Shown here: piece by piece, positions 8,527-42,207 of the stretch
Layout: each line of letters opens with the position of its first letter
Position numbering within the stretch: the first letter of the stretch is position 1
DNA from: Fusarium oxysporum f. sp. lycopersici 4287
Lineage: Eukaryota; Ascomycota; Sordariomycetes; Hypocreales; Nectriaceae
Reading direction: 5' to 3'
NCBI RefSeq assembly: GCF_000149955.1
Contig: NC_030998.1
Coordinates: forward strand, 310,001 to 374,000
Length of the DNA: 64,000 nt
Notes under the pieces: generated by a model
Database searches by the model: none
What the model was told of the DNA's origin: nothing
The model's input: only the letters and a program-made list of their open reading frames with translations
Position numbers and translations under genes: made by a program

Positions 8527-8646
8527 ACTTTTGTAGGCCACTTAGTACTTTGGTACCCCACATCAAGAGACTTTCTATTCATATAGTTGCTTCCTAGTTC
8601 TTGGAACCTTCCTAATACATCTCTTGTATCCAAGTCCGCCTCAGAT

Positions 8647-11013: not shown

Positions 11014-11217
11014 ATGACCAGGAAGATGGGATTTCTTGGTCGGCGTTGGGCTTGCACGGAAAAATGTTATCTTAGAGGTATAGCCATCTACTGTTCAGCT
11101 GCTGTTGACCATGCGTTCGATCTCGACAACAAGTCCCAACATTCAACCGTTATTCTATAACCCTACCTCGCTAATATTCCCATGAATATTGATGAAATCC
11201 TCCCAGAATTCCCGTGA

Positions 11218-12995: not shown

Positions 12996-13609
12996 CTTGG
13001 CTTACTGAAGACCGAGGAGACAGAAAATGCAAAGACCGAAGGCGTTATTAAAACCGTCAGCAAATCAGCCCCCGTCCCCACGAGGCTGACAGGGAGTCAT
13101 GATCGCCAAAACGATGCTAGTGCAAACTGAAAGACCGAGCGATTAATGGGGCAGAGCCGAGTGTAGGCCAATTAGAATTATCCCGGCTTACGATGCTGAA
13201 AGAGGCTGACAAAGACCGAGGTGAAGGATTCTCTTCAATTTGGTGCCTGAGAAGATTGGCCAATTGGAACAAGCATTGATAAGATTGGACCTGACGAGGG
13301 GGACGTAATCTTTTATCGTATGCTTAATTTTGGTGACGCGTTTCAGATCCTCAGACCATGATGAGATTGCTGTTTTCTTCGACGCTCGGTCTTTTGACCA
13401 ATCAGAGATGATGGCTATAGTTAGATAATTCGTATCAAACACCGAAATGTGATGAATTTTCGCAAAGGGCGTAGAAGAACGAGGAAACGGGTTGATATAT
13501 AAGCAAGCGCTGAAATCTCAATCGAAAGAATGTTCAATTCCAATTCAACACAACATTTTGCGTCGCCTCCTTCTATCGTATCTCGTCAACAACGATATCA
13601 CTTCTCACG
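12996..13609. promoter_or_regulatory. Divergent promoter with five AAGACCGA(G/A) motifs
   Basis: Shared promoter of the Zn2Cys6 gene and the RTA1-like gene. AAGACCGAG/A occurs at 13008-13016, 13032-13040, 13131-13139, 13212-13220 and inverted at 13385-13393. CCG/CGG triplets are the usual core of Zn2Cys6 sites, so the array is a good candidate operator for the adjacent regulator. Two of the copies sit in a longer imperfect direct repeat beginning CGATGCT (13112 and 13191). Confidence 0.6.
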
Positions 13610-14663
13610 ATGTCCTCAGACCCACTCATTTGCACTCACATCTCCAAAGAGTGCCCTATCGAGCTCACAACTTATGGCTATCGTCCTAATCTCGGCGGCA
13701 ACATTTTCTTAGCTGTGCTTTTCGGCATCGCATTCGTTGCTAATATCGTCCTCGGCATTCGCTTCCGCATCCGCGCCTATGCGATTGTTCTCAGTCTGGG
13801 CTGCTTAGCCCAAGTCTTGGGCTATGTCGGACGCGTGGGGATGTACTTTCAACCATTCAACGCGATACCCTTCCAAGCGCAGATCTGCTGTCTGATTATT
13901 GGCCCTGCATTCAACAGCGCGGCTGTGTATCTCATGCTAAAACATATCGTTGCGCTCTTTGGAGCCAAGTGGTCTGTGCTGAAACCAAAATGGTATACTA
14001 TCATCTTCATCACTGCGGATGTTGTATCGTTGGTTTTGCAAGCTGTTGGCGGTGGTATCACAGCGACCTCTGACTTCAGAACGGACAAAGATAGGATCGA
14101 AATGGGCAATAATATTATGATGGCGGGTATAGCTTTTCAGGTCGTGACGCTATCAATCTTTGCGATACTTGCAACTTTATTCTGCGTCAGAAGAATGAGA
14201 GCCCTTACTACGAATCCTCTTGAGGGCAATTCCCTCCAGGCTTGGCGAACTCTTCGCTTTAGATTGTTCTTGGGTGGTCTTACGACTGCGTTTATGGCGA
14301 TTTATATCCGCTGCGTGTATCGCATTGCGGAGATGCGAGGCGGTTGGGGCAATAAGCTCATGAGAGAGCAAATCCCTTTCATTATCTTTGAGTCAGTGTG
14401 AGTACTGCCTTAAACTCTAGACTATGGCCAAACGAACTGCTAATAACATGGGTGAAGCATGATTCTCATTGCGACTTTGTCGCAGACCATTCTACATCCT
14501 GGATATTTCTTCCCGTGGTTTGTCGATCAGACCCCTAAGCTTGGTAAGATATGTCAAAAGACAAAGTGACCTCCGAAACTAACAACTTCTAGATGCTGAA
14601 AGCTCATTTACGGAACTGTCCGTTGTCTCTGAATCACGAGTGGGATTTAAGGGGTCGAAATAA
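13610..14663 (+). CDS. RTA1-like multispanning membrane protein (lipid-translocating exporter family)
   Basis: Three exons (13610-14397, 14458-14543, 14593-14663) encode 314 residues with about seven hydrophobic segments. The reading YGYRPNLGGNIFLAVLFG, later GYVGRVGM, FNSAAVYLMLKHIV, VLQAVGGG and YRIAEMRGGWG, follows the RTA1/RSB1 family closely. Members lie in the plasma or vacuolar membrane and are linked to sphingoid-base export and resistance to toxic amphiphiles such as 7-aminocholesterol; the transported compound here is unknown. It is divergent from a Zn2Cys6 regulator whose likely sites fill the shared promoter, so regulator plus exporter may form one resistance unit. Ends in FKGSK. 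Frame and splice sites are clean. Confidence 0.9.
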
Positions 14664-16081: not shown

Positions 16082-17559
16082 TAACATCACGACACAAGGA
16101 TAGAAATCATTTCTCACGACATCACTCTTCTCATGCATTGTTGCCTCAAAGCAGAAGGTTATATCCGGCACCTTCTATGATTCATCACTGACATAGTCAA
16201 ATGTATAGCTGCAACCACCACTAACAAAACGTTGTTGTCGCTACGTTTTAGCGTCATCGACTTTTCTCTGATCGCCCTGATCGGTCATCAGTAGGCTCAG
16301 GTACCTTGTCTCCACGGGCCAATCACTACACCCCTGCGATTGCGCAATCTGACAACTCCCCTCTATCCCCATATAACAGGTTGTCAGCAGTCACAGTCTA
16401 TTGGCGTGAGTTTTCTTGGAACGCGGGGCTTGACCTGAAGCTTGCAGATGCAGAGTAAGCCCAACAGGACCGGTCAACGTGTTACAAGGCCTGTATCACT
16501 GTGACTGCGCAGGCCTATTGGTTTGTTTCTGACACTCACGTAAGGCTGGGATGGAGGTGAGCTTGCAACCTTCAAGGTAACGCTGTCAAAACAAGATTTT
16601 GGGAATGTCATCAAAGCGGAAAACTCTACAGATGTGTCTCGGAAAATAACGTGCCAAGATATGGACTTGAGGAGTGTGTGGGTCATGGGTCGTGAATTCA
16701 GCTGGCCCGGTAAACGGCTGTTGTTATTCTTGGCACCTAGAGTGTAACGTGGTGTAGCCACCACCTCCGCGTTAAAGGCCCGGTACCTGTAAATCCCCCG
16801 CAAACCGGTAAAAACGGTAGTCACTGGGCATATTGGCATTTAGACTACAGTTTCAGCATTGTGAATACGATGTCAAAGCGTCCCGTGTAGATAAGCGTAT
16901 CGATCACGCAATCGGGTGTGCAGTTCACGTCAGTTCAAGCCTGCGATAGTGCAAACTGTTTGAAATAGTACAGAGCTTGATTCTTTCACTCGTCGAATGA
17001 GACGCTCTGATAAGATAGCCTGATATGCGAAGCAACCCTGCAAACACAACGGTCAACCGGTAAGCTGACTTATAACAAAATCGCCACAACAGATGAGCTT
17101 AACCATATTCCCGTCCCGCTTGCTTCAATAAAGGGTGTCGACCTGCATTAATACTTGTTCATGGCTGCATAAACACGAGCTGACCGGCAGATACGAGCTT
17201 ATGGCTGAAGATGATTGTTATGATTGGCAGGTGAAGGTGAAAATATTGAACAACTCAACAAGAGCTTTCAATATTCGGCCGAGCGGGATTGAGGTTGGGT
17301 GTTGGTGAGAAGATGAGACCAACTTGGGTGATGATACGATTGAGCATGTGCATCTCGCAATATGTAGTAATTGAGCAACTCATCGAGGGACGTTGGACAG
17401 CAGAAGTGGACGGCCTATTATGGAGACAACTTGTATAAAGAGGACTTGTGATCTCCTCATTCCAAGACTCGCTCAGGCTCAACCACTGGCTCAACTCTCC
17501 TCACCACTCTTTCAAGAGCATCACTAAATCTCCATCTTACCTTCGCTCCATCCGCCAAC
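16082..17559. other. Intergenic region, promoter of repeat protein at its end
   Basis: About 1.5 kb without a supported gene; a 121-codon open frame on the minus strand (16474-16839) has no recognisable features. A TATAAAG at about 17435, 125 bp before the next start codon, is a likely core promoter. Confidence 0.45.
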
Positions 17560-18123
17560 ATGAAGTTCTCAACCTTCATCGCTCCTCTCATCTCAATCCC
17601 TCTGGTCTTCGCCAGTCCCAACCCCAACAACGACCACTACCCACCTCCCCCCAAGACCAAGACCGTGACCGCAACAGTTACCCACACCGTCACCAAGCCC
17701 ATCTACAAGCCCCCGATCACCAAGACCGAGACTGTCACCAAGAAGTACCCCGTCACCAAGTACGAGACCGAGACCGTCACAAAGTACAAGTGGAAGCCTC
17801 CCGTCACCAAGACCAAGTATGTCACAAAGTGGAAGCCCCCCGTGACAAAGTACGTCACCAAGACCGAGACCGACACCGTTACCAAGTGGAAGCCTCCCGT
17901 CACCAAGTATGTCACCAAGACTCAGACCGACACTATCACAAAGTGGAAGCCTCCCATCACAAAGACAAAGACAGAAACCGACACGGTTACCAAGTACAAG
18001 TGGAAGCCTGCCATCACCAAGTACAAGACCGAGACTGTTACCAAGACTGTCACCAAGCAGCCTTATCCCACTTACCACAAGCCCGGTGGTGGCCACAAGG
18101 AAGGCAAGGACTACAAGGCTTAA
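17560..18123 (+). CDS. Secreted Lys/Thr/Pro repeat protein (187 aa)
   Basis: Single exon. A signal peptide (MKFSTFIAPLISIPLVFASP) is followed by a short Pro-rich segment and then almost entirely by degenerate repeats built from KWKPPVTK, YVTKTETDTVTK and YKWKP units. The protein has no cysteine, is strongly basic and ends in a Gly/His/Lys-rich tail. The composition suggests an extended, possibly O-glycosylated wall-associated or matrix protein, since Thr-rich repeats are common mannosylation targets; function is unknown. Because codons are biased to Lys, Thr and Val with C in the third position, another plus frame and a minus frame also stay open over the same stretch; the signal peptide and regular repeat units mark this frame as real. 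Confidence 0.75.
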   Translation: MKFSTFIAPLISIPLVFASPNPNNDHYPPPPKTKTVTATVTHTVTKPIYKPPITKTETVTKKYPVTKYETETVTKYKWKPPVTKTKYVTKWKPPVTKYVTKTETDTVTKWKPPVTKYVTKTQTDTITKWKPPITKTKTETDTVTKYKWKPAITKYKTETVTKTVTKQPYPTYHKPGGGHKEGKDYKA

Positions 18124-23971: not shown

Positions 23972-24987
23972 TTAAAGCCACTGTTTATTTCCGTAGTGCG
24001 AGACGAAAGAACCTCCGTTACCCGCCTCAATACTGGCCTTGTTGATGACAGAAAGGACTGCTGTGGCAGATTCTTCGGGAGAAATGGCACCCTCCCAATC
24101 AGGCGCGTAGCCTTTGAAAGCAGCAACCATGTCACGAACTCCCTGAAGCTGCTCTTCCGTGTCTGTTTCTCATCAGCATTTGAAGTAAAGGAGTCATTGA
24201 TACCATAGACATACAGTTGGACGTGTCCTGGGTGGCAACAAGACCAGGAGAGACAGCCATGAACAAGATACCCTCCTTCCTATACTGGGCATCGAACTTG
24301 GCAACGGCGATATTAAGTGCGCCCTTGCTAATGGTGTAAGGGGCCCCGTCAGTGATGGAGAAATTTGTAATAAACTCGGGATCGGCCATGCCCGACGAGA
24401 TGGCGATGATTTTCTTAGCTTGGCCCTTGCGGATGAGTGGGAGGGCTAGGTTGAACAGGTGGATGTTTCCAAGAGTGTTGATCTTGAAGGACTCGAGCAT
24501 GTCTTCTTCAAGTCTCTCAGGTTCCTCGCCCCTGAACTGTAAGCAACTGAGATGTACAGAGCATGGGAGTGAACTTACAGAACGCCGATGGGGTTATGGG
24601 CAGACCACTCGGATTGAAGGGCAGCGTTGGCGATGATATAGTCAAGGCTGCCGCCAGTGATCTTGGCTACCTCTTTGACCAAGTTCTACTCCTGTGGTCA
24701 GCGTGAATTTTGGTGAAGAGGCAAATTGGTTGCATACCTTTACCGACTCAAGGTTTTGGATCTCGCCTTGGATGGTATGAATGTTGGATCGTCCAGATAA
24801 TTCACGCTGAATCTTCTCTTCAGTTGCCTTTTTGTTGCGGACGAAACCAATGACGGTGTTGTTTGAGTCAGCAGACAATTGACGAACGAACTCGAACTAA
24901 AGAATTGTTAATGTTGTAGTCGGGAAGTTGAATCAGTGAGACTTACACCGAGGCCTCGGGATGTTCCGGTGATAAGATAAGATGGCA
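23972..24987 (-). CDS. Short-chain dehydrogenase/reductase (SDR)
   Basis: Five exons read cleanly from MPSYLITGTSRGLG at 24987 to a TAA at 23972-23974. TGTSRGLG is the Rossmann dinucleotide-binding motif, IIANAAL corresponds to the NNAG motif, ISSGMAD carries the catalytic Ser region and YTISK the catalytic Tyr-x3-Lys. The C-terminus ends SHYGNKQWL. The family carries out NAD(P)-dependent oxidation or reduction of alcohols and carbonyls in the cytosol. Proteins of this type are common in fungal secondary-metabolism and detoxification clusters. It is the first enzyme at the left edge of the 24-42 kb gene set, next to a Zn2Cys6 regulator with the same orientation; membership in that set is inference. 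Confidence 0.85.
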
Positions 24988-25560
24988 TTGTGATGTTTGT
25001 TTGAGTGAAGGTGGATTGAAGTGATGTAATGGTCAAGGAAACTTATTTGTCTCTAACATGAAATCTTACGGCGAACACTAAAGCCATATATATATTGTTC
25101 TTGAGTTACAGTGTCACTCATGAAATGCTATTGGTGCTTGGTAATTCGGATTGACCCTGCCCGCGATGCGCCTCTTGGTCAGCGAGTTGGTGGAGGTTAT
25201 AGTGGGGCTCTCGCAAAAAGTTGCCCTGCACCAAAGGCCTATCATAAGCCACATACGCCAAAGTCGCATTTATCGTGGGCTCCACAGCCGTAATCAGCAT
25301 TTGAAGAGGAAATGCAACCAAAAACTCATTATAAATCTTGTCCCAAGTCTTTCCAGCTCCGTTATGACTCTGCAACTCTTTGCGAGCTTGGGAAGATTTC
25401 TGACCCAAGTCCGCTTACAACATTGCCAACAATAGCGCCCCAAACCTCAGCTGCTGCTGGCATTTATGCAAATAATAATACACATATCAACTCACTGAGT
25501 TCTGTGGGTAAACTGCTGCTGGAGGGTATAGTTTAGATTTCTGGATTTAATATCTTTGTT
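24988..25560. other. Intergenic, SDR promoter region
   Basis: Holds a TATATATA stretch near 25087, about 100 bp upstream of the SDR start; no gene seen. Confidence 0.4.
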
Positions 25561-27310
25561 TTATATGAACGCTGGTACCGACTTATGAGTCGAGCTCAGA
25601 ATAACACCCAACTTCCGAACATAATTCAGATCTTCCGTATACAAGTCCTTTTGCACCCAGACCGTCTCGATAACTCTTTTAACAGTCGCAATATTTCGAT
25701 ACTGCATGTTCTCAATCGTCCTGTCCATGACTTCCAGAACGATCATCCTTTGCCTATCGCTTTCTGCCGCACAGCCAAAGATGAGTAAAGGAAATGGCCA
25801 TTGGCAGGCAGGTAGTTGTTCAAGCAATTCAAATGCTTGTCCGACCCATGTTGTGAACTTTTGGTCTAGTGGAAGGATTCCTGCGGAAGCTCGCCTGAGA
25901 TAGATCAGAGTAGATAAACGGTACAGCTCGACCACCAGATCAAATGCTGGATGCTTTGTATCAGCAGAAGCGTTGTTGTCCGGCACTTTCTTCTCAAGGT
26001 TGCGCAGCTTCCAATCTAGTACTTGAAGATGGCTTCTATGAGCCTTCGTTTCATAACGTGGGTCGGAAGGCACCGTCACGGCGTTAAAAGCTTCTGACAG
26101 AAGGTATAATATCTCATGCGGCGCTCCTGTAAGACTTTCGGGCTTCAAGAAATATCCTGTTAGCTAGCTCCGCTCGGTAGCGGAGGGTGCATACCTGTCC
26201 GTTACCGCATACCACTGGATGAAACGAATCAGCAGCTCCGTCAGCATCCAGAGTGACATGTGGCTGCCAGTGGCGCAAACTGAACCTAGAGAGCGTATTA
26301 TAATAGTGTACCCAGCCCACAAGAGCAGCGGTGTCATGGTCCAAGTTATCTACATCTAGCCCAGCTGTCTTGACGATCTTGGCAGCGCCACAAGCATACC
26401 ATAGCCAATGACTTGACTTCATGGAGTTCTGCTGGATCTAATGCAGGAGTCAGTGTGTCGCTTCTACGATAGGTTGCGGCCCGTACCTCTAGTGTACTTA
26501 AAATCATGCCTGCTGCGATATGGCAGGCTGAATCGGTAACACTGATGCGGCCTTGTGTTGACTCTGCTAGTTTTCGCAGGGCGGCTACTTTATACTGGGC
26601 CGTTGCTTGAAGTGGGTTGCCGCGATGGAAGGATGCGAGTGCTAGAGCAGATTTGAGAACTGCTGTTGATGAAGGCGACAAGTCCGACAGGGCTATCTGG
26701 ATCAGCAGTTCCCGGACTCTTGGAGCATCATGACCAAACGACGTGATGGAGTATGAGGCTGTCTGCATGACTGGCTAGGGTAAGTGGAAGCGATTCGCAA
26801 GCAACATGCAGGTGATCAGCTAGGCGATTAGACTTACAGTACTGAAAGGAACTCTGATCGGCTGGATTGAGTCGAGCTATGGGTCCCACTGCCGGCCCGT
26901 TGATCAATGAGAGTGGCCCTGATGCCTCAAGAGGGCTAGCATCAGGGGAACCAAAGGGAACCTCAGGCAGCCCCAGCATGTGTACTCCATAAGTCTTATC
27001 CGACGTAGATACTACATCGTGCAGCTTTATATCTGTAAAGGTAGTATTCACCAATCGATGCTCAGACTGTCTACCCTTAAGGCGCGGTCTAGGACCAACC
27101 ATAGCCCGTCGTGTATCATTCCGACGTGGCCAAGACAACTGCATGCCGTAGCCTTTACAGTGGCGTCCTGCTTTGATGCATCGATTGCATTTTGGATAAG
27201 CTTGGTCACAGCGCACCTTACGAGCTATCCATAATGTTAGTAGCCTGAAAGCTATTTGCAAGGGTCAGACAAGGCAAACCTCGACAGGTTCCGCAACCTA
27301 GAGATGGCAT
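25561..27310 (-). CDS. Zn2Cys6 transcription factor (Fungal_trans_2 type)
   Basis: Begins at 27310 with MPSLGCGTC; after a first intron the cluster continues ARKVRCDQAYPKCNRCIKAG RHCKGYGMQLSWP, a complete Zn2Cys6 domain at the extreme N-terminus, the usual position for Fungal_trans_2 (UPC2-like) regulators. Helical segments follow across four more exons (SYSITSFGHDAPRVRELLIQ, LSDLSPSSTAVLKSALALAS, ACGAAKIVKTAGLDVDNLDH, PHEILYLLSEAFNAV), ending SVPAFI at 25561. All junctions stay in frame. Such proteins control nearby metabolic genes or sterol and stress responses. It lies 0.57 kb upstream of the SDR in the same direction. Confidence 0.85.
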
Positions 27311-28000
27311 TTCGATAGGGCAGAGATACGACACAATGTTGCTCGCAAAAACTTTCCACTGTGAATCCCTCGTGGATATCTACGTGGCATGAGGGAAATA
27401 ATATGAGAATCTCCGCCAAGAATGATGCGTTCCCCGATTACCAACATCAAGTAAGCAGCCACAGACAGGATAAAGTCGGTAATATGCCGGCTATACTCAG
27501 TCCTTGATTCAAGCAACTTTTTGCGAGGCGATTACTAAATATTGTGGGGAAGTCGAAACTAAGCTATTATCTGACTAGTGCATGTCTATCTTTAGAACAA
27601 TACTTCGTCGTCACTTTGTAGGGTAAGTATGCAATCAGGACTATTTGGTAATTTATTCTGTGTTTATTACTATCTAGCCTCTAGGACATGTAACCTAATA
27701 TTACCTTTAGAGTAGCTCGATGGACTGTTGTTTATTAAGGGCCTTTTATCTACCTAGAGAAACAGTTAGATACACAGAACAAATTACGTCCATCATGGTC
27801 ACAATCTTCAAAAATCAGTATCTTAAGACATGAACTCTCTTATGCAGTCACAAGCTGATGTGAATTAGCCCCATGCCCCAGTTAACTTATTCCATCGTTA
27901 ACCGGGTTTATGACTTAGCTAAAAGACTTATTCGAAAGCCCAAGACATGACGTTACGCTCTCAAATTACTCCTCATAATTTCATGTAGGAAAAAGCCCCG

Positions 28001-28031
28001 AGATAAGATAACAGATAACAGATAAGATAAG
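28001..28031 (+). promoter_or_regulatory. Array of five AGATAA (GATA-factor) sites
   Basis: AGATAA occurs at 28001, 28006, 28013, 28020 and 28025. HGATAR is the recognition site of fungal GATA regulators (AreA/Nit2-type nitrogen control, also siderophore and light regulators). Located about 0.8 kb upstream of the regulator at 28829. Confidence 0.6.
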
Positions 28032-28047
28032 TACATAACCCCTGCCA

Positions 28048-28063
28048 CGGCGTCTTGGTGGAG
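28048..28063 (+). promoter_or_regulatory. Shared 16-bp element, copy 1
   Basis: CGGCGTCTTGGTGGAG, identical over 16 bp to 35387-35402. Lies 766 bp upstream of the Zn2Cys6 gene at 28829. Confidence 0.55.
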
Positions 28064-28828
28064 TGACCGAAGTTAAGACACCGGTCGGCTAAGTCCAATC
28101 AACCAATAAATCTTGCTGGCGCGCACTAGCAATATTATGTATGATTGGCAGATCACCCTTGTCAAATGTGTCAAGAGAAAGGCTGGAATGATTATCAATG
28201 AGGAATGCTTCTGTATCAAAAAGAGTGCATCTGCACGGCAAAGCGATCCTCTCCTCATTTATCATTTTATACCCTTCATCTCGATGCAATTTGCTTGCCA
28301 CGGTGGTTGATTACTGATGCCTCGATGATTCCTCACCTTCCAAGGCAGCATTGACAGTGACTCGACTGCCAAGACCTAGCGACTCGGACGATAAAATTAC
28401 ATATAACATGGCCGCGGCACGATGTAATAAGTTGCCCGAGCGCGCCTCCATTGGTGGTGTTGCGAATGCATCTGCCTTGACCACTGACAAATACAATACC
28501 TACGATCGCGATCCCCTCAGTCTCGAAATCATGGCAGGCGTACATAATGACGTCGCAAGGAATAATCACAAAATCACTCCGCTGAAGGGAAAACGGCCAA
28601 ATTGCATAACTTCGAGCGGTTTTTGTTCACTAATCAGCTGGAAATGCCGCTTAGCTGAGCGTGGCAGGGCTTAGCGCGACGTGCAATCGCCGCAATGCCC
28701 GCAACTTACGCCGCAAATAACTGTGTTACGCAAGATGCTCGGATCCCTTTAAATCGACTTGTCAGCAAAAACGCAAATACGAAAATTCGTTTTGAGAATA
28801 TGAGATTTTTTGGAAATCCTTTTTGGCT

Positions 28829-31173
28829 ATGGCTGACCATGGTGCGCTGCAAACGCAACGACGGTAAGTGATACTTGAAGGGGATGAAACAGGAGAGCTG
28901 ACGGGTATAGACCTCACGGAGTCGCTTGTACGTCATGTCGACGGTCAAAAATGAAGTGTGTGACTTCGGATCCGGCAGCTGTTGTATGTGATCGGTGTCA
29001 GAGACTGAGGAGACAGTGTGTATTTGAGTCACACCGCAGGGGTCTGTGGAGGAGAGATGTCTCGGGGAGAAGGTAAGCGAAACTATGCGTTCAAGTGATG
29101 TAATTGACAATTGCCATAGAGAAGACCGAGCACGTCCTATAGAAGAGCCAATGGAGGATGGATTGGCTTCTGGGTCCTCAGGGTCACAGCGCTTCTCAGA
29201 TACCCAAGTATTCCAGGCCCTTGATCTACCAAACCGGAGGAATTCATATCAGAATCGAGCTCCTGAGTCAGTCTCCGCGTCTTCCAGATCTGATCAGTCG
29301 CCATTTACACCGGCATCCTTTGTTGCAAATTACCAGGATACGCGAGGGTTGTCACTAGGTGCGGCTCTGAATTCAGACCGATCGGTTGAAGGAGAGGCCG
29401 GAGGCTCCATGGATATGCTCCTCCAGCATAATTTACCCGAAGCAGTGAATCCACCGAGGAAGCATGATCCTGTTGATATGGGACTCATTAGTCGACCCTC
29501 TGCGCAGAATTTGTATGAGGGGTATGTATTTCACTCCGTGCCTTGTGATATCAACTGATCTTTGCAGGTTCTTCAAGCACTTCAATTGCCTCGTTGGACT
29601 ACTCGATCCCATTCTCTACACTTTTTCATACACAAGGAACAAGTCTAGTCTCCTGTTAACCATGATACTTACAATCTCATCACGAATCTTCCAACCAGAG
29701 TCTCATAAGCCTATACGAGACCATGCTGAAGTTCTCCTTGGCCAAGCTTTACTTGCATGTGACTCAGCAATCGAGAACATCTGGGCTATAATCTGCATGT
29801 ATCACTGGAAAGATGCGAATGACACCAGGGGATATACCCTGATTGGGTTTGCACTCCGGATGGCGGCTTCAGCGGAATGGAATATGACACGACGAAGTAT
29901 CTCTTATGATATACAAGGACTCCAGGACTTGGGACAGCTACAAGTGCGGCAAAGGAGAGACAAAGATCGCGTATGGCTGGCACTGGGGAACATCGATAGA
30001 ACGTAGGTCCATGACAAAAACTGAGGGTCATACAAAGCATGGGCTTACAATTGGCAGATCGAGCTATTTTACCGACCGACCACTGTCAACCACCGTCGTT
30101 CTTGAGCATGTAGCCTCAAGACAGTGGATGACCATGACAGAATGGACATATCCACTGGGAGATGGCAAGGCAGTTGGTGGCCATGAGTTGACAGGCATTG
30201 CCAGCAAGGTTTATGAGAGCATGATGAGAACTCGTGTCGACTCTCGTGTTTCTCCGTCATCACTCGATTTCGAGACGTTTCAGATAGATATGGATGACTT
30301 TAATAACAGGATTGCTGCATGGGGAGACTACTGGCAGGCTACATTCGCTACGTGTAAGATAGTAAGCACCTCAGGAGTCTAGAGAACCATGCCTAACATT
30401 ATCCAGTTCCCAACCCGGAGCCTTTCCAAACACCTCTGATCTACCTCTTTAGAGATTACATGCGTCTTTACTTCAACTCGGTATTTCTACATCGAATGCT
30501 CGTCTCAGAAAACAGATCTACGCCACATGATCTCATCACTCATACAGCTCGAATTTGTTACTGTAGCGCATTGAGCGTACTGCGACAGGCTATCGAAATG
30601 GGAGAGTTGGACATCATCTACTACCTTTGGGATACAGCTCACCTGATGATCGCCTATTCAGCCATGATGATCCCAAAGCTATTAAGACAAGATATTGACG
30701 AGTCATCAATCTCGAAGAACGAAGCTATTAATACGATTACTCAAGTTACGTCTGCATACGTCATTGCAGCCAAGTCAATGGGCCACTCTGATCCACAGAA
30801 CAACGGTGTCTTAGCTCAATCTCGTCTCCTCTCCGCCATTCTAGCGCGACTGAAAGCCGAACTGACGCAAACAAATCCCGACATGATATCTTCGGCCATG
30901 CCAGACAATATCTCTATCTCGGGCCTCTCCTGGATCGAAGACCAGCTGAACAGATCCACGTTATTCTCCGATGGAAGAATGGAACCGTCGTTGTCGGAGT
31001 ACGTTGATATGGATACCCAGACCGTGGGGCAGCCCGAAGACATGAGCTCGTTCATCCCGCAAATGGACGAGGAGCTTGATCACATGTTAGATGACGATTT
31101 CATGAGCTCGAGATATTTTGAGGTTGGGTTGCTGTCATGGAGTGAGCCGGGCATATTCATACAGCCTCATTAG
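28829..31173 (+). CDS. Zn2Cys6 transcription factor with Fungal_trans domain
   Basis: Start at 28829 (MADHGALQTQR). After a first intron the second exon carries VACTSCRRSKMKCVTSD, VVCDRCQRLRRQCVF, a Zn2Cys6 cluster with a long middle loop, followed by GLWRRDVSGRR. The next exon is a Ser/Gln-rich linker. The regulatory domain follows (FFKHFNCLVGLLDPIL, CMYHWKDANDTRGYTLIGF, LRMAASAEWNMTRR), with a conserved-looking C-terminal half (LIYLFRDYMRLYFNSVFLHR). Six exons join in frame to a TAG at 31171-31173. This architecture resembles regulators of amino-acid and secondary-metabolite genes. It faces the NmrA gene tail to tail and has GATA sites and a cluster-shared element upstream, so it is a good candidate for the pathway-specific activator of the following enzymes (inference). 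Confidence 0.85.
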
Positions 31174-31579
31174 CCTCACGAGACCTGATTTTGTAAAGCA
31201 GTAGTATGTAGCAACATGTATTTCTGTCCTGGTACTGTATCTCCAGTCGTCAACTATGCTCCAACGTCTGCATCTTACAATCGGAACCAAAAGTCCTGAT
31301 TCTGGCGATCGGTCAAGCAAAGCCACCTTTGTCGACATATTCGACTTTTACGATAAGGAGCTACAGTGTTGAACTTACCGCCTACATCACTAATTTTCAC
31401 ACCAAGGATAGAATGTGATCTAGCCTACCCGGTTATAGATAATATTTCTAACAATGGCAGTATTTAACTGTCATTTCACTAAACGGAAAAGAAGATGTCT
31501 CACATAAGCTGGTATACCCCAGTATTAACTCCCATACCCGAATCCAGGATCTTTGATACATGAAGTTATACGCATTAAA
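31174..31579. other. Convergent intergenic region
   Basis: 3' regions of the regulator and the NmrA-like gene; no further feature seen. Confidence 0.4.
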
Positions 31580-32497
31580 TCATGACTCTTCGACGGCCTT
31601 CAAAGCGGCACGAACAACCTCCTCAAAGTCCTGCTTCGGCAGACCCAATAAATCATTCATGATTTCCCCCTCCTTCTCAAGATGTCCCCCAAACCGCCCC
31701 GTAACAAAACCCGTCTCAATCAGATGATAAACCGCATAAGGATTTCCAGCTGCCACCGCAGCCTGATTCTCTTTGATGACCTTCTCACTATCAACCTTCT
31801 CAACAGTGAACTTCTCCCCACTGACTCGCTCAATGGTCTCAAGGAGCATATTTTGGGTGATAGCAAAGTCACTCAGCCAAACAATTCTGTTCTTTGTCTC
31901 TTCCCATTTCTTGGTAAGGGCGTTGACCATAGCAAGAGCCGTGTTGGCTTCAGTGGTACAGCTGAACCAGCCCTCTCCATCATCCCAGATGACAAACCTC
32001 TTGTCCTTGATGTGCATTCCTAGGAAATCGTGTACGGCACTCCACTTGAGCCACATGCCGCAAGCAATGGCCATCCACTCTAGGCCAATGGATTCCTTGA
32101 AGCGAAGATAATCCTGCACTTGGCCCTTCTCTTGAAAGACGGAGTTCAATGCTCTTGCGTCAGGGTTGTTGTTATTGAGACCATACTCGGAAGCAATGTA
32201 GCGTTTCACTTTGGCAGCGACTGCAGCGTCGACGAAGCGGAGTTGATCAGCGACGGCTAAGGAAGTCATGCAGTTAACAATGGCGTCTTGGCCCGTGAAA
32301 GCAGAGATGAGTGCTTCTGTCGGGTATGAATCATCGATTTTGATGACCTGCACGTTTGAGGGGAGTTTGCCTTTTGAAGACGAGCGTTGAAGGGCGGAGA
32401 CGGTGAAGGAAGGTTCTTTGACTAAGGCGTCTAGCATGATGGAGCCGATTGAGCCAGTGGCCCCGACAATGAGAATGTTTTTGAAAGGCGAAGACAT
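31580..32497 (-). CDS. NmrA-like/isoflavone reductase-like NAD(P)-binding protein (305 aa)
   Basis: Intronless, 305 residues. The N-terminal NILIVGATGSIGSIMLDAL is the dinucleotide-binding loop; VKRYIASEYGLNN is the conserved segment of the isoflavone reductase-like NmrA branch; FVIWDDGEGWFSCTTE and AITQNMLLETIERVSGEKFT follow in the typical order. Members reduce phenolic or quinoid substrates or act as redox sensors without catalysis. It is divergent from the zinc alcohol dehydrogenase at 33319, 0.8 kb away, which suggests joint control. Reductase of a pathway intermediate is the likeliest role. Confidence 0.88.
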   Translation of the reverse strand: MSSPFKNILIVGATGSIGSIMLDALVKEPSFTVSALQRSSSKGKLPSNVQVIKIDDSYPTEALISAFTGQDAIVNCMTSLAVADQLRFVDAAVAAKVKRYIASEYGLNNNNPDARALNSVFQEKGQVQDYLRFKESIGLEWMAIACGMWLKWSAVHDFLGMHIKDKRFVIWDDGEGWFSCTTEANTALAMVNALTKKWEETKNRIVWLSDFAITQNMLLETIERVSGEKFTVEKVDSEKVIKENQAAVAAGNPYAVYHLIETGFVTGRFGGHLEKEGEIMNDLLGLPKQDFEEVVRAALKAVEES

Positions 32498-33318
32498 TTT
32501 TAAGAGTTCAGAATGTGAATGGCTTAGTTTTGTCGACGTTGAGTGGAATTGAAACTTGACTTCTAATATAGATCTATAGCGTGCGAATCATCTATTTTAA
32601 TATTCTGTTATTGCTTACTGCCTCTCATGATACCCTCACTGTCCCATTGCATTCTGCGCGCTGCTTAGTGATCACACCCTTGTCTGTATTACCTCACCTT
32701 TCCTGACCTAATCAAGACGCCGACATCTGCACCCCACCGAGCGCGACAGTTTACGACGCTAGTCGGGATCCTTAGAAGAACGTTCCGGTTTCCCTTCGTA
32801 GGTCAGTCGATTCCATCTGACATGTTTTACCACCATATCTTTTGGAATAGCACCATCGAATAGAGTCAAGCTTTCCTAATTATTTGGCTTGCTGCCATAG
32901 TCGTCAGATCCTCGCGTAGACAGCAAATGTCGCTGCTGCTCCCAGTCGTTTATTTTCTAACCGTGAGTAATACAGCCGTCCTGGTGTTCTAATTGGCTGG
33001 CACATCTTGTACAGGCCGGGAACGATTAGTAACCACTGCCGATGACAGAAATGCCCGGCAACAAAAAGGCAAGAGATGTCAATCAAATAATGTTTAGATA
33101 GTAATCATCTAGAATAACTGCATAGCATTCTGAGTTAATGTTCGGAAGCCTCGGTCTGATGGAAAGTTTTGCTATTATAAATCAGAATGGTTATCTTGAT
33201 CCTATGCTGGACTATATCTTCCAATATCATTCTCACTTGCAAGCTATCATTCATATCAGCTTCCAAAGCATTCACTATAAAGTCGTAACACTCAATCTCT
33301 CGCCTTTTCAATATCAAG
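32498..33318. promoter_or_regulatory. Divergent promoter of NmrA-like and alcohol dehydrogenase genes
   Basis: Contains the inverted copy of the cluster core motif, CAAGACGCCG, at 32713-32722 (reverse complement of CGGCGTCTTG), 216 bp upstream of the NmrA-like start. A further weak relative, GCCGTCCTGGTG, lies near 32975. Confidence 0.5.
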
Positions 33319-34442
33319 ATGGCTCCTACAGAACATACCATCTACCGCGCAGGCGATGGCAACGGCGGCTTCTCTCCCTCCTCCGTCAAGCTGCCTGACC
33401 TTGGTCCTCATGACATTCTCGTTCGTTTGACTCACAGTGGTGTGTGCCATTCAGATATCGTGTTCTGCCAATTAGGAGCCCCTGTAGCTCTTGGCCACGA
33501 GGGAATTGGTATTGTCGAGTCAGTTGGCTCGCTGGTGACACAATTCAAGATCGGTGATCGGGCAGGTGGTGGATTCCACCGCGATGCCTGCGGTCATTGC
33601 AAGTATTGCTTGTCAGGACGGGACATCTACTGCTATGAGCGTGTTATCTTCGGCGAAGGTGACTTTGACAATGGTACTTTTGGAACTTACTATATCGGCA
33701 AGGAGACATATCTTCACAAGATTCCTGATAGTCTTTCTAGTGAACATGCTGCACCGCTTCAGTGCGCGGGCGCTACTGTCTACGCTGCTATCAAGGCTAC
33801 AGTGACAGCCGAGAAGCGCGTCGGCATTCTCGGCATCGGTGGCCTTGGCCATCTCGCCATTCAGTATGCGGATAAGATGGGTGCCGATGTTGTTGTCTAC
33901 AGCACAAGCGCTAGCAAGGAGGCTGAGGCACGACAGCTAGGCGCCAAGGAGTTCCATATCATTGAGAACATGTTTGATACGGCTACGGCGCCGATTGACG
34001 TTCTTGTCATATGTGGAACCAAGTATCCTGACTGGGATAAGTAAGTAATTCAGTACGACTGAAAAATGCTTCGGTCGGCTAACGATAATTCTACAGGGTC
34101 ATGACCAAGGAGTTCCTCGCTAGAGATGGAACTATCGTTCCTCTTGCAGCCCCGGTTCACGGGCCTCTCAGCTTGCCGTAAGTTCAACCATCCACATATA
34201 CTTACCGATACTGACTATCTTGTAGTGCGGGAGCAATGTTCTTCCAGGGCTACCATGTCTTTTCAAGCCTCGTTGGATCGCGCAATATCCACGACGAGAT
34301 GCTTGAGTTCTCTGGACGTCATGGTGTTAAGCCCATGGTTCAGATCTTCAAGCACGAGGGTGCGTCGACTATCAAGGAGGTCTTTGAGTTGGTCGAGCAG
34401 AACAAGATGAGATATAGGGCTGTTCTAGAGATGCCCAACTAG
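33319..34442 (+). CDS. Zinc-dependent alcohol dehydrogenase (MDR family, 339 aa)
   Basis: Three exons (33319-34040, 34097-34177, 34226-34442). Catalytic zinc ligands are in SGVCHSDI and GHEGIGIVESVG; four structural zinc cysteines lie in RDACGHCKYCLSGRDIYCYE; GIGGLGHLAIQYADKMGADV is the cofactor-binding turn. The protein resembles microbial zinc ADHs of the AdhP/CAD-like group and interconverts alcohols and aldehydes with NAD(P)(H), probably in the cytosol. Length and key residues are complete. It is divergent from the NmrA-like gene and faces the bZIP gene; it may oxidise or reduce a side chain in the same route. Confidence 0.9.
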
Positions 34443-35640
34443 AATTGTCTTTTCTCCAATAGTCAGTTTCGCTTTTCACTCCTCCAATAAGCTTAAAGTT
34501 GTTCCCTCGAAAACCGATCCACTCTTTCGAAATAATTCCTCCTTGTTCTTTAATAGCCCCATTGCTTTAAGCATTTTATGCCTTCACTTGCCAGTAACTA
34601 AATTCAGCCGTGCTCCAGGGAGGTGACAGGATGGCGATATGAACGTTATTTAGCCTATTAATGCCCAAAACAGTTGAAAGAACGCAGCGTTGGGGGCTGA
34701 GAACTGCTATTACCATGTTATAATCGGGTAGCGGACCCATCAGTATTCGGGCTCCAGTGTTTTGTCCCCAGTCGCTAATGCACGCTGAAATGTATCAGCA
34801 AGATCATTGCCAGCAGCTCTCCAATAGGGACCTAGGGCTGTATCTTAGGGCTGATACACCCCACCAGGACTGTCCAGCGTTTTCAGGGTATCGATACGAA
34901 AACCCCGACAGGCAATACCAAGCGACGAAGACTATCCAACAGATACCAATTCTTATAGCAATTAGACTCCAGGCTAGACTGTGAGAGAAGCTTGATAACG
35001 AGTATGGCCTTATTCTGGTAGGAGGGTGCTGGGGAGAGTACAACCTTGTGTAACAACGCCCGCGGCGCTATCGTAGAGCCAAAGCGAGACGCCGGCGTCT
35101 TGAACACGGGAAGCCACGTTTGACCGGAATGTCGCCATACCATATCTTACCCCAAAATCTGACGTGAGATTCTGGCGGTCTAAATAGAATTCTCTTCTTA
35201 CCCGGGAAATGCAATTAAACTCCGGATATACTGCGATACTGGGATTTGACAAGAGATTTGAATAGAGCATCCATCCAGACTGCAACGTCAGAGGAGTTTA
35301 GTGAATAAGAAGCCCGTCCTCAATATGGTTATCGGAATCTGCATCGCCCCTAGCTGCAAGGCAATGCCGGCGTCCATGCTGCATGCCGGCGTCTTGGTGG
35401 AGATGCGGATCAATTAGTCCGATCTGTAATCACTTAGTCAGTGCCACTTCACTAAATGATTGGTTTACCTCTCAGCTGAAAGCAGCGTTTGGTGCTTTGG
35501 ACTCTCGACGGGCCGTAACGCCGCAGAGACAAGTTTCCCATCTCGATGTCTGGGCGAAATATATCTCCCGCCGATCAGCTTCTCCAATGTGCCATGAAAC
35601 CTTGCGTCATATCATCTTGTCAGAATATTCTTATTAAGCC
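34443..35640. promoter_or_regulatory. bZIP upstream region with GACGCCGGCGTC motifs
   Basis: No gene supported, although three overlapping minus-strand frames at 34804-35285 suggest an old remnant. A 14-bp palindrome AGACGCCGGCGTCT lies at 35087-35100 and overlaps CGGCGTCTTG (35093-35102). The 16-bp element CGGCGTCTTGGTGGAG lies at 35387-35402, preceded by another ATGCCGGCGTC copy at about 35364-35374. Confidence 0.55.
35387..35402 (+). promoter_or_regulatory. Shared 16-bp element, copy 2
   Basis: Identical over 16 bp to 28048-28063; 239 bp upstream of the bZIP start codon. Confidence 0.6.
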
Positions 35641-37335
35641 ATGAGTTCTTCTATCTCTGGAATGGATGGTATTTCTGTACTGCCACTTGATGCGGGAGAC
35701 ACGGGGTCGGGGCCCAAAAGGGGACGAAGACCACTTGAGGTACCGGAGGGTGGAACTGTGACCAACGTGAGTATGCCGTGACTTGACATCTCGGCATGAT
35801 TAGTGATACAACTTTCGAGTATCGAGCGGCCCTCTAACTGGTCTTATTAGCGCCGAAGGATACAGAATCGCATGGCACAGCGCGCATATCGACAGCGTAA
35901 GGAGTCTGCCATTGATATCCTGAAGCAGAAGGTTGAAGCGCTGGAGCGGTCGAAGGAACATATGGGGAGGGAGTTTATCAACTTCACTTCTGTTATTCTT
36001 GAGCAAGATCCTGTCAAGAATAATCCACAGATCATTGAGCATATCAAGCAGTCTACTATAAACTTGCTCTCCAGCGCTCGAGATGTAGATTTTCAAGATG
36101 GGGAGCAGAATGACCTTCCCAACGATCCTCCAGTCGACGTCTCACCTGATCTCACGCCTCCAATCCCACAAGCTCAGGCCTTCGACTTTCCAATGATGGA
36201 TGGTACCGGACAGATGGACTACACCACCAACCCGATCGACCCCATGCTCTCCCAGCAAAGGCCCAATTCCGATTCGACACCCCATTCCTTCGATGCAACA
36301 TCCTACTTCCAGCCACCCACCACCCAAACACCCTTCTACGACATGACTTACCAGCTCCCCGGATCAACATGGGACTCTACACTGCCCAACCCTCGGTCAT
36401 ACGCAAGCCACGAACTAAACTTTGGCCGACGGTACCACAGAGCCTCTCAGGAAGCGGCGTTTCTTCTAGCGTCGATGAGACATGCGCCTCCTGCATGGTA
36501 TCGTAAGGTCTTTGGCTTCTGCATGCATTTTGAGACGAGGGAGGAGATCAGTAGTCGGCTGGGTGAAGCGCTGCGGAAGTCGAAGGAGACGACGCTTAAT
36601 AATTGGCGGTTTCCGTTTACTAATATTGGCGGTGCCGGGACATTCTTTCCTGACCAGGGCTATGGTAGTGGTGATCTACCTATTGGGAACAGGTCTTTGG
36701 AACACGAAGCGTACAGACCACCCGAGATGTCAGGCTTCTCAATGGGACCCTTCGGACCCTCCATTGAACAGATTAGAGATTTACGCTTGAATCCCCAGTT
36801 ACGCATTATCGATCCGGAATATGACGGAGACTTCTTCGATTCAGATGAGATCGAGATTTGTCTCCGCGGCTACGGCGTTACTATTCCATCGGGTAAAGAC
36901 TTTGTTACAGCTTATATCGACATGAGTATGTTTGAGCGAACATCAGATTCAGAAACGAGCTCTGGACCTACTACACCTCCTGATATGCCAGGTAACGGGA
37001 ACTTCGTGGAGGAGGATTTAGATAGCGATGAGCCTCCCTCGTTTTCATGTCCCGCTGGTTTGATGGGCATGGCGACGGGAGCGATGCCGCCGCCACCGAA
37101 GGGCAAAGGACCTGGGGAGCAATGGAAGACGCCTAGTAGACGGGAGACAAAGGTCAAGATTGATGTTGAGAGACTTATTATGTGTAAGAGAAAGGGTACG
37201 CATTTACTCAGGTCTGAAAGCTAACTGTTTCTGATAGGTCTTGTCAACTCAACTGTGTGTCTCGGAAGAACACCCGCCGTGCGTCCTATGGACATCCGTA
37301 AGTCATTGAAGATGTCCATCCTCCTGGAAGACTAG
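35641..37335 (+). CDS. bZIP transcription factor with DUF3425-like C-terminal region (518 aa)
   Basis: Three exons (35641-35766, 35851-37183, 37238-37335), 518 residues. The basic region RRRIQNRMAQRAYRQRKE, formed across the first splice, carries the N-x7-R signature (NRMAQRAYR) of Yap-like fungal bZIPs, followed by a short leucine zipper. The middle is Pro/Gln-rich; QEAAFLLASMRHAPPAWYRK, VFGFCMHFETREEISSRL and NWRFPFTNIGGAGTFF form the conserved domain of fungal bZIPs related to MeaB-type and cluster regulators; the last exon ends with VNSTVCLGRTPAVRPMD. It regulates transcription in the nucleus. With two Zn2Cys6 genes nearby, the gene set holds three potential regulators. The two cluster-shared elements upstream suggest cross- or autoregulation. 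Confidence 0.88.
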
Positions 37336-37510
37336 CATTGGGATACGTCACTGTATTGGTCGCGGTATAAATAGAGATAAGCAACACCAGAATGAGATCT
37401 GAAAAGTGAAGGGGAATGACAGCGGTAGCTCAATAAATGTCTCTATATGTCCAATTGGTCTCCCGTGTATCCTATTCAGCTCGGAGGAGTAGAGCAATAC
37501 CGCCCGTTTA

Positions 37511-38476
37511 CTAGCCCTCAAGGAATGTCTCGACATGTTTGACGAAGGTCGGAGCGTACTGGAAGAGAAAGCCGTGGCCGCTGTTGGGATAAAGAATGAG
37601 CTGACCATTAGGAACCTTTTGGTAGATAAGATAGCTGTTGGGCGTGGGGATCATATAGTCGTTCTGTCAAAGGATATCTGTTAGTATTTGGCCTCGATTG
37701 AAATAGCAGGTAAGGTCACTCACGCTTCCATTTGCGACCAAGACCGGTATCTTGAGATCGGACAACCGCTCATAAGCGCCATCTTCTCCCTTGCTCTTCT
37801 CTGGACTCTCTGTAAAGTCGTGACCTTGTGTGACCTGGCCCATAAGTCCCTTACCACCATCTTTATAGCCACTACTTAGCCAAAGGGAAGCCTCTTCACC
37901 ACTCGTCGCTGCACTCCGCTCATGAACCCTCGACCACCAAGCCTCAGCAGCAGCATCTCCCTCAGCATTCTTAGGGAAGAAAAGTGTCTTGAAGACATTG
38001 ATGTCAACATCCTTGACACCCGCAACAGAACCAACATCTTTGTTTTGAGAATAAACAAGATCAGGTCCGTAGCTTGTCCCGGTACCTGCAAGGATCAACT
38101 TGCGGACCTTGACTTTGCTGGGATCCGCGTTGAGAGCTATCATCTGAGCGACGTAGCCTCCAATGCTGAAGCCAAGAAGATCAATCTCTGTTTCGCAGAT
38201 CAGTTCGATAAAGTGTGTTATATCGGCCGCGGACTGTCGGATAGAAGTGGCGACTTCGCCGGTGCTGAGACCAACACCAGCATAATCAACTGTAATGATG
38301 CGCCGGTGCTTTGCGAGGTTGTTGACAATGAGAGGATCCCACTTATCCATGGTGCCACGGAAGTGCGTTAGTAGCACGAGGGGGATGCCAGGCGCATTGC
38401 CGATCTGACGGTATGCGAAGGTGACACCGTTGGGCGAATCGACATATTGTGTCTTGGCGGTTTGCTGAGTGGCCAT
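37511..38476 (-). CDS. Alpha/beta hydrolase (301 aa)
   Basis: Two exons (37724-38476, 37511-37663). The nucleophile elbow GFSIGG, an Asp in NDYMIPT and the His in NSGHGFLF give a complete Ser-Asp-His triad, and THFRGTMDKWDP is the oxyanion region (usual HG replaced by HF). The VLLTHFRGTMDKWDP and DYAGVGLSTG segments resemble fungal and bacterial hydrolases of the haloperoxidase/arylesterase type. Cytosolic, since no signal peptide is seen. It could open an ester or lactone or cleave a C-C bond in the pathway. Convergent with the bZIP gene. Confidence 0.88.
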
Positions 38477-39203
38477 TTTGATGGAGTTTGATAAGGTTGG
38501 AGATTAAGTTTCTGGGGAAGGTGGCGCTTGGTAAATCCTTGCAACTGATATCTGATGCGTTTATGTACTCGTTTGCCGGGTGTTGCTTGTGATGTCACCA
38601 AGAGTCGGAGTGCTTACTCACAAAATTAATCATCCCGCCTGGAGAGTCACACTACGTACGCCAGCAAATTAGTGTTCTTACACTGCTAGAATCATGTGCA
38701 TAATCAACTAGCGAGCGTGGAACGCACAATACCTGATACATTCAGTCACAATTTATTTGCCGCTGTTATTGTAACTCAGATTCGTTATCTGATGCAACGT
38801 GAAGAATATGTTACCTGAGACTTGGAAAACACCAAGCTATGCCTCACACCTGAAGGCAAGAGGCTTTCAGCAACTATCATTATTTATTAAAGTCCGGCAT
38901 GTAGCTGCCAGAAGAGTACGAGGTCGACAGGCTTCTAAGGCCTAGCTATGAAACGGGGCATAACTATTGCACGCGGAGCCGAAACAATGCCATATCAAAA
39001 GATTTACACATTAAAGTCAGACGAGGTAGAAAAAAACCCAATTTTTATTATAAGTCTGAAAAGACATGTGAAGATCTATCATTTGTCCATAAACATATAC
39101 TGTATGCTACTCATTAAGCCGTAGCTGTCTCTATATTGTACACTGGGTAGCTAAACGGAATGGATCAGTTATGGGTTCAAAGGTACATAAATAATGGGCT
39201 GGC
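38477..39203. other. Intergenic region
   Basis: Promoter side of the hydrolase and 3' side of the OYE gene; no gene seen. Confidence 0.4.
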
Positions 39204-40562
<1,359 letters not shown>

Positions 40563-41526
40563 TGTGTTTTAGCGTAAACTTTTTAAGTACGGTTGATTAT
40601 GTTCTTCAGAGCCTAAACGAAAAGTGAGAATGCGTTGTAATTTTAATCTTCTTGCAGTGTTTGTTTGAATGGTCTGATCTTGTTCATCTGCACTTTCTAC
40701 ATATATATATACACTGGCCCTGAGTCTCTTTATGCTTCCATTAACAACCGATGAATTACTAACACACCTTGACTTGAACAGGCCATATCTGCTTTTGAAT
40801 CGCAATATCTCGCGAAGACCGACGGAATGTTCCAATCATACATCAGTTGCCTTTTAGTTATGGGAATAGAGGGTATTTGGTTTACGTGTAAAACCGATAA
40901 GACGGGATGGCTCCACATGGTTTCTCGGAGCTGATTACTGATATGCTCACAAGCATTCAATGTAACATGAACACGGCCATGTTTAGTCACTTTTGATGAC
41001 TAAAATGAGATTAGACGTTAGATATTCGCTCGTTTCGCAGTTTCATCACTTCGCAATTGCTAATGTTTTGTTGTTTGTTGTCTCGTTTACTGGCTCCCAT
41101 TGTGAACCACCAGCTGTGATGCAGCCATCGACATAATTGGCTGCTCAACAGCTCTCCATAGATCGATAAGATAGCTTATCTTATCTTATCGGTGATATTA
41201 ATGTCCGATTGACATGAAGGCTTAAGGTCACTTGGGCGAGCGATAGAATGAAAGATGATGCAATCTCATTTTATGAATACTGTTTGTAAATTAGTAAGAC
41301 TTCGTATGCTGTTTTCTGATGACACGCAGGTGATTAGTGACCAAACCGTCTCCTGCTTGTGTCCAAATCACTGTTCATTGGTCAGATGTAGCCAAGTGGG
41401 GATGGCTAAGGATGGCTAACCCCCATGCTCCGTCCACAATGAGACGAGTACAAGGTCATTACTAAGTTGTCCGCTCGTACAGACTGGGAGGAACAGATCC
41501 GTCTAATGAGACGAATCCATTAAGCA
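40563..41526. promoter_or_regulatory. Divergent promoter of OYE and DUF3237 genes
   Basis: Contains TATATATATATA about 130 bp upstream of the OYE start (near 40700) and the GATA inverted array at 41165-41190. Confidence 0.5.
41165..41190. promoter_or_regulatory. Inverted GATA-factor site array
   Basis: GATAAGATA followed by three tandem TTATC units (41176, 41181, 41186) makes a near-palindromic cluster of GATA sites in the promoter shared by the OYE and DUF3237 genes. Confidence 0.6.
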
Positions 41527-42207
41527 ATGACGACTCCGACATGGAGTCAACACCGCCGAGTCAATAGTTTCTATAAGAATGCAACACACAGCCCAGATAC
41601 AACATTTGGCGTGACAATAGATCAAACCCGGATCCTACCATCACAAGTCGCTATCATGACCCCTTCACTCGAACACGTTTTCACAATGAGGATGTATACA
41701 TCCCCAGACAAAGCCCTTGTCATCCCAGAAGCCAAGGGCAACAACCACCGCATTATCGCCTTCTTGACGCATGGTCACATCAAAGGTAGTGGTCTCGAGG
41801 CAGAGCTTCTCCCTGGTGGCGCCGATTGGATCTTGGTATGTCCCTTCTCCATATACCAAAGACAAATGCTGACCATTGATCAGCGTGATCCCGACACAAA
41901 CACCGGGCATCTCGACATCCGAGTTCAATTCCGATCAAAAGAAGGCCACGGTATTTACATCCACTTCAAGGGCGTTCTACAGATTGATGAAAAATGGATG
42001 GAAGTTTTTACTGGGGGCCCGAAGGCTCGAACTCTCGAGTTTGGAGAGAACGAATGGCTGGGATCTCCCATCATTGAAACCAGCCATCCTGAGCTAAAAT
42101 GGGTAGAGCGCTCCGCCTTTGTCAGTGAGCTGCGTTGGTTCATTGATGACGATGGCTCTGTCGCTGTTGAGAATGCTGTTTACAAGGTCAAGCCGAGCAG
42201 AGTATGA
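41527..42207 (+). CDS. DUF3237 protein (210 aa)
   Basis: Small cytosolic beta-barrel protein of the DUF3237 family: LEHVFTMRMYTSPD, HRIIAFLTHGHIKGSGLEAE, LLPGGADWIL then DIRVQFRSKEGHGIYIHFKG follow the family pattern. An intron of 48 nt (41836-41883, GTATGT..CAG) interrupts GGADWIL|RDPDTNTG; because 48 is a multiple of three the unspliced frame is also open, but only splicing restores the family sequence. No catalytic mechanism is established for the family; members occur in fungal biotransformation clusters and may be isomerases or ligand binders. Divergent from OYE and the right-hand end of the gene set. Confidence 0.85.
   Translation: MTTPTWSQHRRVNSFYKNATHSPDTTFGVTIDQTRILPSQVAIMTPSLEHVFTMRMYTSPDKALVIPEAKGNNHRIIAFLTHGHIKGSGLEAELLPGGADWILVCPFSIYQRQMLTIDQRDPDTNTGHLDIRVQFRSKEGHGIYIHFKGVLQIDEKWMEVFTGGPKARTLEFGENEWLGSPIIETSHPELKWVERSAFVSELRWFIDDDGSVAVENAVYKVKPSRV

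Follow-up and report, generated by a model that had tools for sequence, protein, structure and literature searches.

A candidate reductive and hydrolytic biotransformation gene cluster with a rare shared promoter element in Fusarium oxysporum f. sp. lycopersici 4287

The window (the whole stretch of DNA that was analysed, 64,000 nucleotides) corresponds to bases 310001-374000 of contig C13 (1.75 Mb) in the Fusarium oxysporum f. sp. lycopersici 4287 genome (61.24 Mb, 71 contigs). Enzyme and regulator genes lie contiguously at positions 23972-42207 (18.2 kb): nine intact, spliced genes were modelled by hand splicing with script-checked frames, and all nine have an ATG-to-stop frame without internal stops and GT-AG introns. 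Nine intact genes had been claimed for this interval in an earlier note; all were present, spliced and open, and the outer coordinates were exact. Families were assigned with Pfam, using reading frames for some genes and spliced products for four.

The first gene (23972-24988, minus strand) encodes a short-chain dehydrogenase/reductase (SDR) of 271 aa in 5 exons, with PF00106 (E 1.9e-24) and the YxxxK motif; protein searches found relatives in many Fusarium. It is followed by a Zn2Cys6 transcription factor with a Fungal_trans_2 domain (25561-27310, minus strand; about 508 aa; PF00172 and PF11951), the least certain model, with internal splice sites chosen by hand, and by a second Zn2Cys6 transcription factor (28829-31173, plus strand; 698 aa, 6 exons; PF00172 E 1e-4), whose score of 22.8 bits is barely above the PF00172 cut-off of 21. 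Next come an intronless gene for an NmrA/isoflavone-reductase-like NAD(P)-dependent reductase (31580-32497, minus strand; 305 aa; PF05368 E 1.2e-23), a zinc-dependent alcohol dehydrogenase gene (ADH; 33319-34442, plus strand; 339 aa; PF08240) and a gene for a bZIP transcription factor (35641-37335, plus strand; 518 aa; PF00170) with relatives in Fusarium. The block is completed by an alpha/beta hydrolase (37511-38476, minus strand; 301 aa; PF00561; nucleophile, acid and histidine assigned by visual inspection), an old yellow enzyme (OYE, OPR-like; 39204-40562, minus strand; 362 aa, 6 exons; PF00724 E 2e-92) and a DUF3237 protein (41527-42207, plus strand; PF11578), whose length is 210 aa with the ATG at 41527 as start codon, or 167 aa with that at 41656. 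Three of the nine genes encode regulators (two Zn2Cys6 factors and one bZIP), and three divergent pairs are formed: the NmrA/ADH and OYE/DUF3237 pairs proposed earlier are confirmed, with the Zn2Cys6 genes as the third. By Pfam, none of the nine encodes an oxygenase, a P450, a methyltransferase or a transporter.

The nearest solved relatives of the enzymes were sought by sequence. For the NmrA protein these were isoflavone reductase 2gas (E 3e-10) and eugenol synthase; it has an NAD(P)-binding motif and, in the alignment, a lysine matching that in FEEKAS of 2gas, which presumably has a catalytic role. The closest solved match of the ADH was bacterial ADH 1rjw, with cinnamyl alcohol dehydrogenase 5vkt ranked third; that of the OYE was 12-oxophytodienoate reductase 1, with artemisinic aldehyde reductase also near by sequence. 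The OYE carries a full-length Oxidored_FMN domain including the HGANGY stretch, whose residues we take to have the functional role known for old yellow enzymes. The hydrolase best matched 4pw0 (an alpha/beta hydrolase fold protein), and the SDR was nearest to short-chain dehydrogenases and a carbonyl reductase. NCBIfam, tried with five proteins, gave none at the curated cut-off among the matches listed (for the SDR, 25 of 150). A duplicate of the whole cluster was sought elsewhere in the genome and not found, the bZIP and DUF3237 genes having only weak matches there. At C4:150.6-153.2 kb (L010, 5600-8246), about 1.4 kb separates an OYE-like stretch (33% identity) from a hydrolase homologue (36% identity to the cluster hydrolase); the two may be a second OYE-hydrolase pair.

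The DUF3237 gene contains a 48-bp GT-AG intron (41836-41883), through which the earlier note had read an uninterrupted frame; the frame of the retained form is open by chance. Among ten homologues (P0002-P0011), the 16 residues encoded by the intron were absent in nine and replaced by other letters in P0004, and in most of the ten the start codon is the ATG corresponding to 41656. An eleventh record, P0001 (226 aa), is 100% identical to the unspliced frame and keeps the 16 residues. The unspliced frame shares 91% and 88% identity with two F. oxysporum records, and the spliced product is 96% identical to one of these, P0003, for which a barrel structure is predicted. The model has a fold match in 6jjs, a Penicillium herquei enzyme which we take to belong to DUF3237; other solved fungal proteins of this fold are 9m2y/9m2z (Aspergillus), whose entries name them DUF3237.

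A recent transfer of DUF3237 from bacteria was considered and is unsupported: prokaryotic relatives (38 loci from 85 matches to a pattern that needs two short stretches kept) are 24-40% identical, the higher values being over short spans, and plasmid relatives (20 records) are 23-31% identical to the fungal protein. Six of the 20 plasmid records were fetched, and catabolic-type oxidoreductases adjoin the DUF3237 gene in four of the five that were annotated. On pRHL2 of Rhodococcus jostii RHA1 (L029, 6123-14290), a DUF3237 gene stands in a run with an NADP-dependent oxidoreductase, an NTF2-family protein, a cupin, an alpha/beta hydrolase and a mycofactocin-coupled SDR, a mix of families that resembles the fungal block.

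The six intergenic regions of the cluster (5.8 kb in total) were scanned for all 10-mers, and a single one, CGGCGTCTTG, was found in three of them. Its four copies in the window are confined to the region between both Zn2Cys6 genes (28048-28057, plus strand), the NmrA/ADH divergent promoter (32713-32722, minus strand) and the region upstream of bZIP (35093-35102 and 35387-35396, both plus strand); the third copy overlaps the palindrome GACGCCGGCGTC, and the fourth has CGGCGTCTTGGTGGAG in common with the first. By exact search, no copy lies upstream of the SDR, upstream of the hydrolase or in the OYE/DUF3237 region. In the genome (61 Mb), CGGCGTCTTG occurs 182 times (95 forward, 87 reverse), or once per 336 kb, and a reversed control pattern 95 times. 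At a uniform rate, four copies within 7.35 kb would be expected about 0.0003 times per genome, a rough estimate, given the non-uniform composition and the post hoc choice of the motif; no three copies fall within 10 kb of one another among the places listed, which are 100 of the 182 and run from C1 to part of C7. Shuffling the window 100 times gave a mean of 0.11 copies and a maximum of 1. When the six regions were shuffled with dinucleotides preserved (n=400), 14% of shuffles had some 10-mer in three regions, and none had one in at least three regions with at least four copies. Allowing one mismatch makes the excess unremarkable: the window then has 6 matches, and 7 of 100 shuffles reach that number.

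A second motif, GATAAGATA, has two sites between both Zn2Cys6 genes (28002-28029, plus strand) and three in the OYE/DUF3237 divergent promoter (41165-41190, both strands), i.e. five in 5.8 kb against four in 68 kb of non-coding DNA from elsewhere in this genome, and CGGCGTC occurs six times in the cluster regions against five in the same 68 kb. The control DNA was delimited by the absence of long ORFs, which is less refined than the gene ends used for the cluster regions. Like CGGCGTCTTG, GATAAGATA is missing from the SDR upstream region. HGATAR and CreA-type sites exceed shuffles (observed counts reached in 2 and 0 of 100, respectively) and are barely above other non-coding DNA (reached in 9% and 4% of samples); TGACGT and CGG-N-CCG sites show no enrichment in the cluster regions over shuffles. 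Sites of the bZIP type, Zn2Cys6 CGG-N-CCG type and plain HGATAR type were accordingly dropped as shared elements, their enrichment not being convincing. The shared cis motifs claimed earlier are thus supported for part of the genes, CGGCGTCTTG reaching three and GATAAGATA two of the six regions.

Synteny in other ascomycetes, which the earlier note proposed as a check, was assessed within Fusarium from the gene numbers that protein matches carry in their names; these are labels and not genome sequence. In F. sarcochroum, the bZIP (FSARC_847, 59% identical to the window bZIP) and DUF3237 (FSARC_850) genes are three apart, spaced as in the window; in an F. lateritium isolate they are four numbers apart (ACHAPQ_006627 / ACHAPQ_006631); and one DUF3237 match and one bZIP match stand on a contig of the same size (144,544), a hint of linkage. 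The numbers of the SDR and bZIP genes differ by four in F. longipes (FLONG3_6476/6480), by six in Fusarium sp. DS 682 (IL306_004857/004863) and by 17 in F. austroafricanum, and in F. sarcochroum the number of the SDR homologue (66%) exceeds that of DUF3237 by 10. The DS 682 DUF3237 match is on a separate 6-kb contig with a distant number, and further species with a single match each were uninformative. Judged by these numbers, some other Fusarium species seem to retain the bZIP-DUF3237 and SDR-bZIP linkages, possibly by general microsynteny. The SDR is the weakest member, because its upstream region carries neither motif and its distance to bZIP differs among species.

We read the block, with about even confidence, as a regulated Fusarium gene cluster for reductive/hydrolytic biotransformation (catabolic or detoxifying), plausibly of a small plant-type compound, with a core of NmrA reductase, ADH, bZIP, hydrolase, OYE and DUF3237 plus the divergent Zn2Cys6 pair. 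Joint control is plausible, and is supported in part by the presence of CGGCGTCTTG in three of six regions and by the linkage hints. A cluster regulator, probably a Zn2Cys6 factor, would act via CGGCGTCTTG on its own promoter and on those of NmrA/ADH and bZIP, and an AreA-type GATA factor might add nitrogen control at the Zn2Cys6 pair and OYE/DUF3237. In the proposed scheme, the OYE would reduce an activated C=C bond, the ADH and perhaps the SDR would interconvert carbonyl and alcohol, the NmrA/isoflavone-reductase-like protein would reduce a second position, the hydrolase would cleave an ester or lactone, and the DUF3237 barrel could perform the last step, e.g. a decarboxylation or a quinone-methide-type reaction. 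The pairing of factors with sites, the order of reactions and the substrate are what we infer, beyond the gene integrity, families, promoter motifs and linkage hints observed above. The earlier note's interpretation as a catabolic/biotransformation cluster is partly supported overall, and the breakdown of a defence compound with stepwise enone reduction, which it had proposed, may be a function of these candidate enzymes.

The main rival to the cluster reading is that the genes are conserved but unrelated: ordinary neighbours ordered by general Fusarium microsynteny, with no nine-gene pathway, among which the Zn2Cys6 pair, NmrA/ADH and bZIP may share a regulator. We consider this possible, if somewhat doubtful. 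It fits the restriction of CGGCGTCTTG to three of six regions, the differing position of the SDR and the large NmrA, OYE and ADH families, which make chance neighbours of such kinds likely (28, 37 and 79 match rows, respectively, in the whole genome, counted exon by exon and not as gene numbers). It accounts less well for the concentration of the rare CGGCGTCTTG at the cluster, for three divergent pairs and three regulators in nine genes, and for the bZIP-DUF3237 spacing retained in F. sarcochroum at 59% bZIP identity.

Enzymes of the OYE, SDR, hydrolase and DUF3237 families can act as tailoring enzymes, and the block could be the tailoring part of a secondary-metabolite pathway with its backbone elsewhere. 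A six-frame motif scan of the window, which can miss genes, detected no KS, adenylation, terpene-synthase, HHxxxDG or P450 motif and bears out for the window the earlier statement that no backbone synthase (PKS, NRPS, terpene) is present. The flanks were scanned over 120 kb (60 kb per side, about 1.6 kb of it N), and contig C13 was found to carry an NRPS-like frame in which the adenylation motif TSGSTGTPKG occurs twice (L017, C13:250001-256000), HHxxxDG motifs near 276 and 306 kb and P450-like motifs near 258, 408 and 425 kb. The NRPS-like and HHxxxDG motifs favour a tailoring role, as does the fold match of the DUF3237 model to the P. herquei enzyme; the role is nevertheless improbable, since the window is free of backbone motifs, P450, methyltransferase and transporter are absent from the nine genes, and some 78 kb separate the SDR from the visible start of the NRPS-like frame upstream of it, a long distance for a fungal cluster.

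Clusters of the type proposed here are already familiar in fungi. FDB1/FDB2 are Fusarium benzoxazolinone detoxification clusters and resemble the locus as xenobiotic clusters that include a transcription factor gene; the FDB1 table opens with the NmrA-like FVEG_08287 and includes a dienelactone hydrolase (PMC4726666). The FDB signature of metallo-beta-lactamase, amidase, NAT1 and transporters, as given there, is absent from the nine genes; metallo-beta-lactamase and NAT1 were not found in the 10 flank ORFs searched either, and the words bZIP, old yellow and DUF are missing from the main text of the FDB paper (PMC4726666). The nicotinate catabolic regulon hxn of Aspergillus nidulans resembles the locus as read here: it includes an OYE gene (HxnT), has bidirectional promoters and is controlled by a pathway-specific factor and by the GATA factor AreA (PMC8478523). 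A xanthine-dehydrogenase-type HxnS was found neither in the nine genes nor in the 10 flank ORFs. No published description of the locus was recognised among the open-licence papers listed, judged mostly by title and abstract start. The present work adds a rare promoter element shared between cluster regions, a corrected gene model for DUF3237 and the link of that family to phenolic decarboxylases. If real, the cluster would be a reductive, backbone-less Fusarium addition to the few characterised ones (FDB, hxn) and would place fungal DUF3237 in a testable metabolic context, catabolic functions having recently been reported in bacteria; the 10-base CGGCGTCTTG offers a concrete, cheap handle on joint control.

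In bacteria, lignan-type compounds are broken down with DUF3237 proteins as decarboxylases (PMC12607616). PinZ/PinX and PhcF/PhcG belong to pinoresinol and DCA catabolism, and the reductase PinZ precedes the DUF3237 decarboxylase PinX (PMC12607616, PMC12997858); a DUF3237 protein is what the fungal locus has in common with them. This kinship hints at phenolic chemistry. By analogy, the block might do in a fungus what the lignan/neolignan pathways do in bacteria, controlled by a cluster regulator and by nitrogen: the isoflavone-reductase-family enzyme would open a benzylic ether, the ADH would oxidise a side-chain alcohol, the DUF3237 barrel would remove a carboxyl via a quinone-methide-type step, and OYE and hydrolase would clear unsaturated or esterified products. 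An old observation, present as a reference title in PMC12607616, is that Fusarium solani degrades syringaresinol, for which this reading, if true, would supply the genes. We regard it as very unlikely: Pfam found no GMC oxidase or lignostilbene dioxygenase among the nine genes. Bacterial co-occurrence of an NmrA relative was also considered and rejected: no close relative was found, with matches in none of 2 genomes and then in 17 of 385 (Alphaproteobacteria, as inferred), weak throughout (best E 2.3e-7, 23%).

The candidate cluster is bordered by stretches with few long ORFs (about 18.2-23.9 kb) or with only ORFs below 200 aa (42.3-46.3 kb). Ten of the 89 listed flank ORFs of at least 100 aa were searched for families: ABC transporter, Zn2Cys6, Fungal_trans, RTA1, protein kinase and amino-acid permease were represented, and four had no family. 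At 3609-14401 of the window, ABC transporter frames, a Zn2Cys6 gene and an RTA1-family protein stand in a row, possibly a separate export-related neighbourhood. A repeat-rich protein without a Pfam match (17452-18123) has VTKTxTxTVTKWKPP-type repeats that overlie a 57-bp tandem array at 17822-17964.
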